From: Oscillospiraceae bacterium
Lineage (GTDB): Bacteria > Bacillota > Clostridia > Oscillospirales > Ruminococcaceae
DNA: 64,000 bases
Assembly: GCA_017460835.1 (NCBI GenBank)
Contig: JAFUAD010000060.1
Coordinates: 60,304 to 124,303 of the forward strand
Direction of reading: 5' to 3'
The position numbers and the translations under genes were made by a program. Numbering within the stretch: position 1 is the stretch's first letter; each line of letters opens with the position of its first letter. Positions 12,484 through 42,320 of this stretch are shown here, in pieces. The notes under the pieces are model-generated. The model was not told where the DNA came from and searched no databases. It was given only the letters and a program-made list of their open reading frames with translations.

Positions 12484-14775
12484 ATGTTGAAGAAACGGAT
12501 CGCGGCAGGGCTTTCTGCCGCCGTGATGCTCGGGAGCTGTCTGCAAACCGTACCGGCTGCAACGGTGACCGCGGCATCGAACCCGGATTATGCAAAGGCA
12601 CTGCAAATGTCGCTGTACTTCTACGAATGCCAGCAGGCGGGGCATCTGCCGGAGTGGAACCGCGTCGAGTGGAGAGCAGACGCGGCAGTCGATGACGATG
12701 TAGACGGCGGATGGTTCGATGCGGGCGACCATGTGAAGTTCAATCTGCCGATGTCCTATTCGGCGGCGATGCTGGCCTGGGGACTGTATGAGTATCCGGA
12801 GGGCATCGAAGCAAGCGGCGAGATGACAAACTATGTCAACAACCTGAAATGGGTGCTGGATTATCTGGTGCAGTGCGATCTGGGGGATTCCGTGATCTTT
12901 CAGGTCGGCAACGGACAGGATGACCACAGATGGTGGGGGCCGGCAGAGCTCCTGCCCTACGGCATGGATGAGCAGGGCGTTACGGACCCGCGCGGACACC
13001 TTGAGGGACGCAACTGCTCTGCTGTGACCGCGGAAATGGGCGCGGCACTGGCAGCGGGCAGTGTTGCACTGAAGGGCAGAGTCGCGCAGAGCGTGCTGGA
13101 TGACTATGTCAAGCACGCAAAGAATTTCCTGAAGATGGCGGATGCAGACCGCAGCGACGAGACCTATCAGAATTCCGACGCAAAGGGCTTTTACCGCTCC
13201 AGCCATTTCTACGATGAGCTGTTCTGGTGCGCAAACTGGCTGTATATCGCCACAAATGACCAGAGCTATCTGACGCAGGCGGCATCCTATATCCCGAATC
13301 TCGGCAAGGAACAGGGACAGGATGTTCTGAAATATTCATGGGCACATTGCTGGGATGATGTGCAGCAGGGCGCAACGCTGCTCTATGCGATCAATACCGG
13401 CGATGCGGAATGGATCGCGCAGACGAAAAAGCATCTGGATTACTGGCTCAATATCGACAGCACCAAAATCGTTCCCGGCGGGCTGCGCCATGTGGATACA
13501 TGGGGATGCCTGCGCTATGCGACGGCAGTCGGCTTTCTCACCTCGGTTGCCTGCGATGAGCTCTTTCAGAATGACCCGGACAGAAGCAAGTATGTGGATC
13601 TCTACGAGACACAGATCAACTTCTGCCTCGGCGTCAACCCGGATAAGCGCGCCTATGTGGTCGGGTACGACGAGACCTCGCCGCATAACCCGCACCACAG
13701 AACGGCACATGCCTCGTGGAAAAACAGCGAGGAAACGCCGGTTGACAGCCGCCATACCCTGTACGGCGCACTGGTCGGCGGCCCGAATCTTGACGGCAGC
13801 TATGAGGATGACCGCGGCAACTACATCAACAACGAGGTCGCAACGGACTACAATGCCGCGTATACGGCGCTGCTCTGCAAGATGGTGACGGAATACGGCG
13901 GAAAGGGCGACCCGGCATTCCCGTATCCGGAGGAGCGCGATGACGAATTCTTCGTCGAGGCAAAGGTCACCAATTCGGCCTCCGGCTCGACGGTCAGCAT
14001 GAAGATCACCAACCATTCCGCATGGCCGGCGAGAGTGGTCGATAACCTCTCCATGCGCTACTATATGGATCTCTCCGAGATCATCAGCGCGGGCTTCTCC
14101 GCATCGGATGTGACGGTTCGCTGCGACCGCGATCAGGCGGCGATGTACTCCGGCGAGGGCGTAAAGCCGGCGCAGATTTCCGAGCTCAAGCAGTATAAGG
14201 GCAATATTTACTACATCGAGGTCACATTCCCGGACGGCAGAGCCGTCATGCCGATCTCCGAGGGGCGGCATCAGTGCGAGGTGATTTTGGCGCTGGTGTA
14301 TCCGAATTACGGAGACGGCTGGGATGCAGCGAATGACTATTCCGCACAGGAGAGATCAAGCTCCGAAAAGAACGTGAAAACAGCGCGGATTCCGGTCTAT
14401 GAGAGCGGCACGCTGATCTCCGGCACGGAGCCCGACGGCACGACCGGCAAGGGCTCGATCAGTGCGGCGCCTGCCCCGGACGGCCAGCCCCGCGTCACCG
14501 AGCCGATCACGCTTCCGGACGAAACCACGACCACCGCGCCGCCTGAGATCGACGGGAGCGCGGTCTGGGGCGATGCGGACTGCAACGATGCGGTTGATGT
14601 GCTGGATGCGGTCATGCTTGCGCGCGTCGCGGTGGAGGACACCGGAACCGGCATTACCGATCAGGGCAAGAAGAATGCGGATGTGACGCATGACGGCTCG
14701 ATCAGGAGCGACGACCTCAGCAAGCTGCTGAAATATCTGGCAGGACTGCTTCAGCAGAAGGATCTTGCGCCGTAA
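12484..14775 (+). CDS. Secreted dockerin-bearing GH9-CBM3c endoglucanase
   Basis: 763 residues: signal peptide (1 to about 30), GH9 domain (about 35-475), CBM3c (about 490-650), Thr/Pro linkers and a type I dockerin (about 696-757). Catalytic residues are visible: Asp79 and Asp82 in DAGDH, His and Arg in the 400-406 PHNPHHR motif, and the acid Glu451 in NNEVATDYN. A GH9 with a fused CBM3c is the processive endoglucanase type. The dockerin repeats are GDADCNDAVDVLDAV and NADVTHDGSIRSDDL, closely similar to those of the GH26 enzyme in this window, so both probably bind the same class of cohesin. Single-gene unit with its own promoter and terminator. Confidence 0.95.
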   Translation: MLKKRIAAGLSAAVMLGSCLQTVPAATVTAASNPDYAKALQMSLYFYECQQAGHLPEWNRVEWRADAAVDDDVDGGWFDAGDHVKFNLPMSYSAAMLAWGLYEYPEGIEASGEMTNYVNNLKWVLDYLVQCDLGDSVIFQVGNGQDDHRWWGPAELLPYGMDEQGVTDPRGHLEGRNCSAVTAEMGAALAAGSVALKGRVAQSVLDDYVKHAKNFLKMADADRSDETYQNSDAKGFYRSSHFYDELFWCANWLYIATNDQSYLTQAASYIPNLGKEQGQDVLKYSWAHCWDDVQQGATLLYAINTGDAEWIAQTKKHLDYWLNIDSTKIVPGGLRHVDTWGCLRYATAVGFLTSVACDELFQNDPDRSKYVDLYETQINFCLGVNPDKRAYVVGYDETSPHNPHHRTAHASWKNSEETPVDSRHTLYGALVGGPNLDGSYEDDRGNYINNEVATDYNAAYTALLCKMVTEYGGKGDPAFPYPEERDDEFFVEAKVTNSASGSTVSMKITNHSAWPARVVDNLSMRYYMDLSEIISAGFSASDVTVRCDRDQAAMYSGEGVKPAQISELKQYKGNIYYIEVTFPDGRAVMPISEGRHQCEVILALVYPNYGDGWDAANDYSAQERSSSEKNVKTARIPVYESGTLISGTEPDGTTGKGSISAAPAPDGQPRVTEPITLPDETTTTAPPEIDGSAVWGDADCNDAVDVLDAVMLARVAVEDTGTGITDQGKKNADVTHDGSIRSDDLSKLLKYLAGLLQQKDLAP

Positions 14776-14824: not shown

Positions 14825-14902
14825 CGTTTGCATCGGGAATGAACCGCTGATATTTAAGAACATTTGTTTAGTGCGATGGGAAAAGCGTGACTTTTTGCGC
14901 TG

Positions 14903-15120
14903 GGAGTGGCTTTTTCGGGGATTTTTACTCAGTCACAATCGGAGTTGCCTCTAAAGTTTTTGGTCGAGCTTTTTTCAAAAAGCTCGCGGAGTCCAGAGGC
15001 AGAGCCTCTGGTCGCCCACCGCAGTGGGCGAAACTCCCCTAGCGTGCAGAGAGCTCGGCGGGCTTGGGGACCTGCGATAGAGGTCCCCATTCCAAAATAG
15101 CATCCGCGCAGCGGATACTT
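14903..15120 (+). repeat. Structured intergenic element, copy 1
   Basis: The core (14953-15120) contains five inverted repeats in a row: HP1 14966-14985, HP2 14993-15011, HP3 15012-15031, HP4 15066-15088 and HP5 15102-15116. GGAGT (14988-14992) can pair with ACTCC (15033-15037), enclosing HP2 and HP3 in a three-way junction. The same array occurs at 41195-41358. HP2, HP4 and HP5 are identical in the two copies, while HP1 and HP3 differ only by paired changes. A 5' extension back to 14903 is shared with a fragment at 42263. The element ends about 55 bp before the ruvC promoter. I found no protein-coding explanation. Confidence 0.85.
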
Positions 15121-15174
15121 TATTCTTAATATCATAAAATCCCCGATATGCCACACCTTTTTGCGCTGTTCCCA

Positions 15175-15203
15175 TTGCTTTTTTTTGCAATATGTGCTAT
15201 AAT
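15175..15203 (+). promoter_or_regulatory. Promoter of ruvC
   Basis: TTGCTT (15175-15180) and TATAAT (15198-15203) with a 17-bp spacer; the -10 is perfect, the -35 weaker. Confidence 0.75.
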
Positions 15204-15234: not shown

Positions 15235-15714
15235 TTGCGGATACTGGGAATTGATCCGGGCTATGCGACCGTCGGGTTCGGGGTTGTGGATTATCAGGGC
15301 TTTTCGTTCAAGACGCTGGAATACGGCGCGATCCTGACAGAGGCGCATACCGATTTTCCGGGGCGGCTTTTGCAGATTTACACGGATATGGTGTATCTGC
15401 TGGAAAAATACCGCCCGCAGGCGCTTTCCGTCGAAAAGCTGTATTTCAATACCAACAAGACCACGGGCATCATGGTCGCAGAGGCGCGCGGCGTGATCCT
15501 GCTCGCCTGCGCGGAAAAGGCTGTGCCGGTGTTTGAATATACGCCGCTTCAGGTGAAATCTGCGGTGGTCGGCTACGGCAAGGCTGAAAAGCGGCAGGTC
15601 ATGGACATGACCCGGCGGATCCTGCACCTGAGCGAGATTCCGAAGCCGGACGATGCGGCGGATGCGCTGGCACTGGCGATCTGCCACGGGCACTGCGCAA
15701 AGCCGGATTACTGA
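15235..15714 (+). CDS. ruvC: Holliday junction resolvase RuvC
   Basis: 159 residues starting MRILGIDPGYATVG with the first catalytic Asp, then SVEKLYFNTNKTTG with the catalytic Glu and the C-terminal DDAADALALAICH with the last Asp pair. RuvC cuts four-way junctions moved by RuvAB. The start is the TTG at 15235, which has AGGGGAG 7 nt upstream; a GTG at 15229 is too close to that site. First gene of the ruv cluster. Confidence 0.95.
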   Translation: MRILGIDPGYATVGFGVVDYQGFSFKTLEYGAILTEAHTDFPGRLLQIYTDMVYLLEKYRPQALSVEKLYFNTNKTTGIMVAEARGVILLACAEKAVPVFEYTPLQVKSAVVGYGKAEKRQVMDMTRRILHLSEIPKPDDAADALALAICHGHCAKPDY

Positions 15715-19275: not shown

Positions 19276-20541
19276 ATGAAACGAAATATTCGGTTCCGGG
19301 CGGCATGCCTTGCGGCGGCACTGATGTGCGGTGCGGCATGGATGCAGGGCTGCGCCATAAAGGCTGCGGACAGGGACGGGAGCGAGAGCACCGCGGATTC
19401 TGCGGGCTCTGCTGCGGAGGAATCCTCCGCGGCGGATACGACGGCTCCCTTATCATTGGAATTCAGCGTTCCGGATGCATTTGAACCCGATAAGTTTGAG
19501 TCTGATGAGAACGGAGATGCGGACAGCTCTACAGAGGATGAATTCATCATGGTTCGGGCAGATACCGGCAAGGCGGAGTATGCAGAAGCGAGTAAAACGC
19601 TGGAGCGCTATCTGGAGGCTATGAAGGCCGGCGATACTGAGACTGTCCTTGAGATCATGGATCTCAACAGATCCGCCCGTGATTATTTGCTGATGCTCGG
19701 AACGATAGCAACCGCAGAGGATCCGGATGCAGCAGTGAAGCTTCAGGCTGATACGCTCCGGGAAAATGTTACAAAGCAGGTTGGAATGTTTCAGGATTAC
19801 TCAGTGCAGTTCCCGTATGAGATGCCGAATTATATGAAGCGGTGCGAGGAAGCAGCGCCGGAGCTGGCCGAAATGGACAGCCGTCTGGAGGAGGTCCGCG
19901 CACAGGCTGCCCCCGAGGAGGCGGCGGAGCTGCAGCGTGCTGAGGCTATGGTTGAGCTGATTCACCGGCAGTACGGCATTGATATGATTTATGTCATTCA
20001 GTGCCAGATGCATTATACCGATTTCGGCGGGACGGAGTGGATGTGTCTTGTCTGCCGCGACGGAAAGTGGGCTGTTGATACAACATTTTTCGGGCCGATG
20101 GTACTGGGGAAAATCAAAAAGGACATCGTCAATGAGGCAAATGATATGGCGAAGCACATCTATAATGCCGTGCAGTCGGCGCTGACAGATATGAGCGCGG
20201 AGGGCATCCTTGACGCTTCGCTGGATGATACCTATGATATGAAGGGCGGCGATTTTGCCAATCTGTCGAAGCCTGCCGAGACGGATTCCGCAGAGGGCAA
20301 ACGGCAGTATTTCTATTACAAGGTTGCGGCATATTACGGGGAAATCACGGAGATCAACGTCATCATGTTCTCCGTAACAAACAGTTCGTGTGACGGTGTC
20401 GCGCTGCAAAACGGCATCATCAATCTGCCGCAGGAAACGAAGCCGGTGATTTACGGCTCGTATCCGAATCTGATGAAACCCAATGCATGGGGCATCGGGA
20501 GCGTTTCGGCTGCGCTCGAATATGCAAAAAAGCAGTCCTGA
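19276..20541 (+). CDS. Array lipoprotein 5 (long two-domain form)
   Basis: 421 residues, lipobox MQGC, acidic linker, then the same NTF2-like region (TLERYLEAMKAGDTETVLEIM ... LVCRDGKWAVDT when read in two parts) with a longer helical insert (AELAEMDSRLEEV region), and the C-terminal array domain: NDMAKHIYNAVQSALTDM, MKGGDF, IYGSYPNLMKP and SVSAALEYAKKQ. GGGAGG precedes the ATG. Together with its neighbour it shows that the short members correspond to the C-terminal half of the long ones. Confidence 0.78.
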   Translation: MKRNIRFRAACLAAALMCGAAWMQGCAIKAADRDGSESTADSAGSAAEESSAADTTAPLSLEFSVPDAFEPDKFESDENGDADSSTEDEFIMVRADTGKAEYAEASKTLERYLEAMKAGDTETVLEIMDLNRSARDYLLMLGTIATAEDPDAAVKLQADTLRENVTKQVGMFQDYSVQFPYEMPNYMKRCEEAAPELAEMDSRLEEVRAQAAPEEAAELQRAEAMVELIHRQYGIDMIYVIQCQMHYTDFGGTEWMCLVCRDGKWAVDTTFFGPMVLGKIKKDIVNEANDMAKHIYNAVQSALTDMSAEGILDASLDDTYDMKGGDFANLSKPAETDSAEGKRQYFYYKVAAYYGEITEINVIMFSVTNSSCDGVALQNGIINLPQETKPVIYGSYPNLMKPNAWGIGSVSAALEYAKKQS

Positions 20542-41128: not shown

Positions 41129-41194
41129 TGGGAAATCGGCGGTATTTGCGGTGCATCTGAAAAGATTCAAAACTCGGCGCGAGTACCCATTTTG

Positions 41195-41358
41195 AAAGTT
41201 TCGCTCAAGCCTTTTCAAAGGCTTGCGGAGTCCAGAGGCAGAGCCTCTGGTCGCTGCCCGCAGGCAGCGAAACTCCCCTAGCGTGCAAAGAGCTCGGCGG
41301 GCTTGGGGACCTGCGATAGAGGTCCCCATTCCAAAATAGCATCCGCGCAGCGGATACT
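41195..41358 (+). repeat. Structured intergenic element, copy 2
   Basis: Second full copy of the element at 14953. Hairpins: HP1 41206-41225, HP2 41232-41250, HP3 41251-41270, then HP4 and HP5 (ATCCGC/GCGGAT) followed by ACTTCTTTTTT, which resembles a weak terminator. Compared with copy 1, HP1 has five and HP3 three base pairs exchanged on both arms, with pairing kept throughout. Here too a plus-strand gene follows, with its own promoter about 70 bp downstream. Confidence 0.85.
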
Positions 41359-41425
41359 TCTTTTTTAATATGTTTTAATATGTCGTTTCGTCATACTATC
41401 GGCAAAATCTGTATCATCTTGCGAT

Positions 41426-42236: not shown

Positions 42237-42262
42237 TCCGATTCCATTATGCATTTATTCCG

Positions 42263-42320
42263 GAAGTGACTTTTTCGGGGCATTGAGCTGTCTCTGAAGT
42301 TTTTGGCCGGGCTTTTTTGA
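42263..42320 (+). repeat. Fragment of the structured intergenic element
   Basis: GTGACTTTTTCGGGG matches GTGGCTTTTTCGGGG near 14906, and the block at 42290-42320 matches 14947-14977 with few changes (both contain AAGTTTTTGG and GCTTTTTT). The match stops within HP1, where the sequence changes to an AT-rich segment leading into the gene at 42380. It looks like a truncated copy. Confidence 0.6.

Follow-up and report, generated by a model that had tools for sequence, protein, structure and literature searches.

The hairpin element that occurs twice in the stretch of DNA analyzed here (the window; 64,000 nucleotides of an Oscillospiraceae genome) most probably represents a group of non-autonomous transposons, which share a DNA-level hairpin core of unproven function. 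The base pairing within this core is genuine, but present evidence points to a mobile repeat whose palindromes are a feature of the DNA, and not to an RNA. An earlier note on the window had offered three options, namely a small RNA, an mRNA-end element, and a transposable palindromic unit. The last of these fits the terminal inverted repeats, the target duplications, and the element-free ruvC promoter in relatives. The element is common in uncultured gut relatives of Ruminococcus.

Copies in the window and in related genomes

Covariance-model matches at 14953-15122 and 41194-41361 confirmed the two copies, each with five hairpins in the same order, of which HP2, HP4, and HP5 are identical. All three pairs that differ in HP3 are compensated, as had been read from the sequence. 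For HP1, the five compensated pairs claimed earlier come down to two when a length difference of two bases at the apex is aligned. The total is thus five substituted pairs (3 in HP3 and 2 in HP1) instead of eight, with none broken. Marker strings for HP2 and HP4 (at most 3 mismatches) each occur twice in the window, against 0.00 expected, which rules out chance. The short end hairpin with T-rich sequence was also found in the copies, and a plus-strand promoter lies downstream of both, although the exact 17-nt register is seen in copy 1 only. Copy 2 has a different left end, and by eye its -35 starts about 28 nt past its right end. The features are as follows.

14892..14901, no strand: left target-site duplication TTTTTGCGCT, 10/10 identical to 15158-15167
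14902..14926, plus: left terminal inverted repeat of the type I carrier (alignment of own-genome copies)
14953..15125, plus: hairpin core, copy 1 (model match 14953-15122, 184.9 bits; end extended by eye)
14965..14986, plus: HP1 (sequence, copy alignment)
14993..15011, plus: HP2 (sequence, folding)
15012..15031, plus: HP3, the most variable stem (sequence, alignments)
15066..15088, plus: HP4; many own-genome copies carry a 48-nt insert at its loop
15102..15116, plus: HP5 (helix 7 in the alignments), with a T-rich stretch after it
15134..15157, plus: right terminal inverted repeat
15158..15167, no strand: right target-site duplication TTTTTGCGCT
15175..15203, plus: ruvC promoter, sigma-70-type TTGCTT-17-TATAAT; -35 begins 17 nt past the element end
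15235..15714, plus: ruvC, downstream of copy 1 (Pfam PF02075, E 2.6e-48)
41194..41361, plus: hairpin core, copy 2 (model match, 176.0 bits); its left end differs, and no left repeat of type I was seen
42262..42310, plus: decayed relic in which a left end of type I, with 3 mismatches, is followed by the beginning of HP1; its right limit was set by eye

The gene preceding copy 1 (12484-14775 of the window) encodes a family 9 glycosyl hydrolase with cellulose-binding and dockerin domains.

BLAST found 61 segments matching copy 1 in the genome from which the window derives (its own genome). Many of the 40 regions that were aligned are cut by contig ends, because breaks in the assembly (2.98 Mb, 103 contigs) tend to fall at the repeat. 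Among these copies, several paired versions exist of each of HP1, HP2, and HP3, and they are combined in varying ways. Some of these combinations could be assembly chimeras; they already differ among copies with matching duplications on both sides (e.g., L001, L006, L010, and L021). HP1 was seen split by other DNA in L008, L016, and L028/L095 (contigs C89, C8, and C19), over about 0.5-0.9 kb where both sides are visible. The interrupting stretch in C19 contains a 259-codon open frame, which we take from a motif to be methyltransferase-like.

The earlier note had proposed a covariance-model search of the genome and its relatives, and many further core copies were found in this way. With a model built from 17 cores and a threshold of E 1e-5, the core was matched in 27 of 30 genomes of the genus, with up to 64 matches per genome. 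Under stricter filters it was matched in 36 of 295 genomes of the order, covering 26 of 149 genera; both counts include the own genome. Records containing the HP4 string (71 stretches) bear the titles of uncultured Ruminococcus, Oscillospiraceae, Clostridia, or Clostridiales, several of them from rumen, omasum, or pig. Several distant cores from other families of the order and from the same family (among L345-L355) share HP1-HP3 by eye and have a different 3' half, often with a TCCGGTGGA-loop hairpin.

The comparison with Rfam, also proposed in the earlier note, gave no match: with Rfam 15 at gathering score, neither the window nor the related loci (10 and 11) had any match, and by E-value nothing was found, the best hit being isrK with 12.2 bits against a cut-off of 50. 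A tRNA scan found none, and the plasmid search gave no match. The phage search gave 2 records, and searches of viral contigs gave 3, 4, and 2 stretches. Part of the HP1-HP3 module was found in a Microviridae genome (L365; MG945283.1, 4693-4767, E 8e-8) and in a 4-kb phage scaffold (L366; MT839740.1, 3259-3306, E 3e-6). No description of the hairpin-core element was found among the papers listed, as represented by titles and the openings of abstracts, with subscription papers outside this scope.

Carriers, target duplications, and promoter register

Homology around copy 1 extends past the core to the inverted repeats at 14902-14926 and 15134-15157, with TTTTTGCGCT on both flanks, and copy 1 belongs to a carrier that we term type I. 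At the ends of this carrier (GGGAGTGG ends) lie inverted repeats that are imperfect, measure about 25 bp, and have a terminal C; the end pattern (at most 2 mismatches) was detected in 21 of the 30 genus genomes, a few of these by chance. Target duplications that agree in at least 8 of 10 bases flank 18 of the 26 two-ended type I copies, five of which are from the own genome, against 2 of 650 mismatched left-right pairs. These duplications read as 8-10 bp and not cleanly as 8 or 9.

Type I elements have one end 14-17 nt upstream of a promoter -35. Among the two-ended copies, 21 of 26 have a -35 at 15-17 nt from one end, which is the right end in 11, the left end in 10, and both in none. The other five (L168, L018, L006, L237, and L220) failed the promoter scan, although TATAAC is in place in L006 and L018. 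A wider scan yielded 82 distinct type I ends, some of which are plainly chance matches. A promoter with at least 9/12 matches was present within 60 nt of 44 of these, and lay at 14-17 nt in 38 of the 44, one end being entered twice (at 16 and 11). At 20,000 random positions in the fetched loci, such a promoter was found at 2.1%, and at 14-17 nt at 0.12%. In the own genome, where the two ends differ, 12 of 16 right ends and 0 of 6 left ends are in register; over all 26 copies, both orientations occur.

The ruvC promoter exists without the element in relatives, as judged by eye. The gene was located in 26 of the 30 genus genomes, and in the 160 nt examined upstream of it a type I end was visible in two (the own genome and G004). 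In the 24 remaining loci, including that of the nearest relative (G023), the promoter has no type I end, and in most of them a comparable promoter is visible. An alternative in which the right-end motif is an operator independent of the element was rejected: 22 of 23 matches adjoin element sequence or a type I/B end, the remaining one being C95:8460.

At least one other carrier, type II, contains the core as well, and there it is often flanked by duplicated terminator-like hairpins. The left end of this carrier begins near CTGTCGATAAAC. A duplicated block scoring at least 13 was found on both sides in 11 of the 25 type II copies; among mismatched pairs, the figure was 4 of 400. Nine of the 11 blocks are stable hairpins of 26-38 nt that resemble intrinsic terminators; the other 14 copies had no such block. 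This looser local-repeat count replaces a first count at the exact end, which gave 3 of 18. Taking copies of all kinds together, direct repeats scoring at least 10 flanked 31 of 99, against 9 of 294 mismatched pairs. The occurrence of the same core in type I and type II carriers suggests that it may pass between end systems by recombination or capture.

Two further carriers were noted by eye. In several of the loci L164-L179 (genome G026), core copies precede arrays in which the GACAT or GACATNCAAACG-like repeats are degenerate. Three other copies (L189, L190, and L130) have TACAATCGCC-like ends, two of them with duplications of 14-15 nt, near a stretch resembling a ribosome-binding site.

A role between genes as an mRNA-end element, as a terminator, or as an insulator of transcription would be in keeping with HP5 and its T-rich tail, and with some type II copies at duplicated terminator-like hairpins. 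We consider this unlikely, as type I elements lie upstream of promoters in either orientation and neighboring genes occur in every orientation. With a crude ORF caller, all four arrangements were found (30, 26, 25, and 14 of 95 copies), so that gene context lends no support to the mRNA-end role suggested earlier. These mixed orientations also rule out a fixed position next to one class of gene.

An autonomous partner with the same ends was sought in the fetched loci, in the genus-wide scan for the end pattern, and with PF06782 and NF033529, and none was seen. PF06782 matched in 0 of 30 genus genomes, and the control genomes were likewise without a match. NF033529 matched in 5 of 245 order genomes, and type I ends were not found at the five inspected of the six listed loci. 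No transposase bracketed by a pair of type I ends was present in the fetched loci. Membership in the p-MULT family discussed below is not shown by these searches, which covered PF06782 and NF033529.

Base pairing on the two DNA strands

The earlier note had reasoned that its reading would fall if other copies broke the HP1 or HP3 pairing as often as they kept it. This condition was examined and the reading withstood it: in a model-fitted alignment of 104 matches (102 distinct), 97.6% of cells pair. Double changes affect 29 of 42 pairs, with 396 double-changed cells over the 104 matches. None of 500 shuffles reached any of the covariation measures, and sliding the partners gave at most 38 double-changed cells; with a fitted alignment and related copies, these shuffle figures are not probabilities. 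A first count with mafft and RNAalifold on 100 full cores was misaligned (40 G-U against 364 alternative pairs, at 22 variable pairs) and was replaced by the model-fitted alignments, which favor structure.

A transcript under selection is expected to tolerate G-U pairs and to reject A-C mismatches. In helices 1, 3, 4, 6, and 7, G-U and A-C numbered 15 and 15 in alignment A2, and 30 and 18 in alignment A3. Over 152 distinct cores the figures were 40 and 26, a difference in the RNA direction that is not significant (p 0.11 against equality). In RNase P, taken from 27 genus genomes with the structure given by RNAalifold, the count was 354 G-U against 14 A-C; two partial sequences among the 29 matching genomes were excluded. 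As a fitted model should favor G-U over A-C, the bias of fitting runs against the conclusion that an RNA signature is absent. G-U cells were also few relative to alternative Watson-Crick cells, with 15 against 378 in A2 and 57 against 423 in A3 (where one helix-5 pair may be counted in), compared with 120 against 271 at the variable pairs of RNase P. Helix 5 is the exception: G-U is fixed at some of its pairs and double changes occur in only 7 cells, so that its pairing is unsupported.

The window copy folds at -84.3 kcal/mol in sense and -86.5 kcal/mol in antisense. Among the 137 of 152 cores that are 155-225 nt long, the sense strand was the more stable in 43 (means -78.5 sense and -80.1 antisense), compared with 27 of 27 for RNase P. 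The sequence of both copies allows the proposed three-way junction of GGAGT with ACTCC. Across the cores, however, it pairs no better than with shuffled partners. Over the 102 of 152 cores in which a script found both HP2 and HP3 (50 were dropped), its five positions paired at 0.96, 0.85, 0.84, 0.84, and 0.39, against 0.96, 0.83, 0.81, 0.83, and 0.38 for shuffled partners. It was rejected as lacking covariation support.

A structured non-coding RNA spread by transposons, with its hairpins selected in the transcript, would be in keeping with the strong covariation, the conserved loops and linkers, the T-rich 3' end, the strength of folding (z -7.0 for the window copy), and the slight G-U excess over the 152 cores. 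Of the features of a structured RNA, however, the covarying helices are present while a strand-specific tolerance of G-U was not seen. With G-U not clearly above A-C, an antisense strand that folds equally well, a junction without covariation, and no Rfam match, we regard such an RNA as unlikely. The step from paired changes to RNA is not supported here, as the two DNA strands preserve the pairing to almost the same degree, which is not so for RNase P in the same genus. Rather, stems in which entire Watson-Crick pairs are exchanged, with hardly any or no preference for a strand, appear to be kept as DNA palindromes and not as the fold of one transcript.

The paired changes could also be purely mutational, with template switching copying one arm from the other and the hairpins being functionless, which would be compatible with a mobile element. 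Template switching during replication has been described to yield, in one event, compensatory changes over several bases as well as perfect stems (PMC8794818). The scarcity of G-U intermediates relative to RNase P agrees with this. Against it, the order of the hairpins, the loops, and the linkers are recognizable in 26 genera, which neutral decay would not preserve, and we consider a purely mutational origin possible but doubtful.

Proposed origin and comparison with known systems

Our preferred reading remains that of non-autonomous transposons in which a core of about 170 bp, non-coding and containing five hairpins, is set between transposon ends. The ends, the duplication, the promoter register, and the link between asymmetry of the ends and orientation indicate that type I behaves like the Mutator-like (p-MULT) elements with DDE transposases, of the TnGBS/ISLre2/ISKra4 kind. 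Type I would thus probably be moved in trans by a p-MULT-like enzyme, although no enzyme was found. The core may have been transferred between end systems through recombination or capture, and its stems may be upheld as DNA palindromes by template-switch correction in replication, by selection on the DNA hairpin, or by both. Against this reading stand the searches for a transposase, in which none with these ends was found, the duplications of 8-10 bp, the five type I copies that failed the promoter scan, the 14 type II copies without a duplicated block, copy 2 being out of register, and the excess of G-U over A-C by 40 to 26. The preservation of hairpin order, loops, and linkers across the order likewise argues for a function and against it, and the linkers may yet have a role in RNA. 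For its carriers, the core could owe its presence to template-switch upkeep alone, to selection on the DNA hairpin, or to an RNA role.

More tentatively, one conserved hairpin core may have been adopted by several unrelated end systems, of which one selects promoters and another terminators, and may work at the level of DNA. It would then be a passenger that codes for nothing and whose palindromes are active when single-stranded or as cruciforms, for instance in a replicating circular intermediate. A look-alike of the HP2-HP3 module in a Microviridae genome fits such a passenger but does not show it.

The element presents textbook covariation without the strand signature of RNA, and comparing G-U with A-C and sense with antisense folding offers a simple test for other covarying repeats. 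With it, a published rule of promoter-targeting insertion is extended to numerous small elements in uncultured gut bacteria, and a single hairpin core is seen to be common to carriers that differ in target choice.

REP and BIME sequences are dispersed intergenic palindromes. The element is likewise dispersed, intergenic, and palindromic, but consists of five different hairpins in a fixed order. The IS1202 family comprises insertion sequences with long duplications. Nine type II copies resemble this family in having duplicated blocks of 26-38 nt, which here are terminator-like hairpins.

MITEs are short, non-coding elements with many copies, terminal inverted repeats, and target duplications. 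The element shares all of these features; terminal inverted repeats, a target duplication, and an empty site were found, and an autonomous partner was not seen in the loci and genomes searched. It differs from MITEs in that its interior is recognizable across an order, covaries, and is common to carriers with different ends and target choice.

The closest resemblance of type I is to TnGBS/ISLre2 (p-MULT 3) and ISKra4 (p-MULT 4). Guerillot et al. place the insertions of TnGBS/ISLre2 and of some ISKra4 elements 15-17 bases upstream of sigmaA promoters, as measured to the -35, with duplications of 8 or 9 bp and inverted repeats of 18-39 bp that have a terminal C, and in a single orientation if the ends differ or in both if they match (PMC3942029). 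These elements and type I are alike in promoter distance, terminal C, short duplications, and the link between orientation and ends, where asymmetric ends fix the orientation and matching ends free it. The inverted repeats of type I fall at about 25 bp, imperfect and with a terminal C, and its duplications at 8-10 bp. The p-MULT elements described there encode transposases and measure 1.1-52 kb, whereas the element of copy 1 is gene-less, is 256 bp long (about 300 with the HP4 insert), and is built around a hairpin core.
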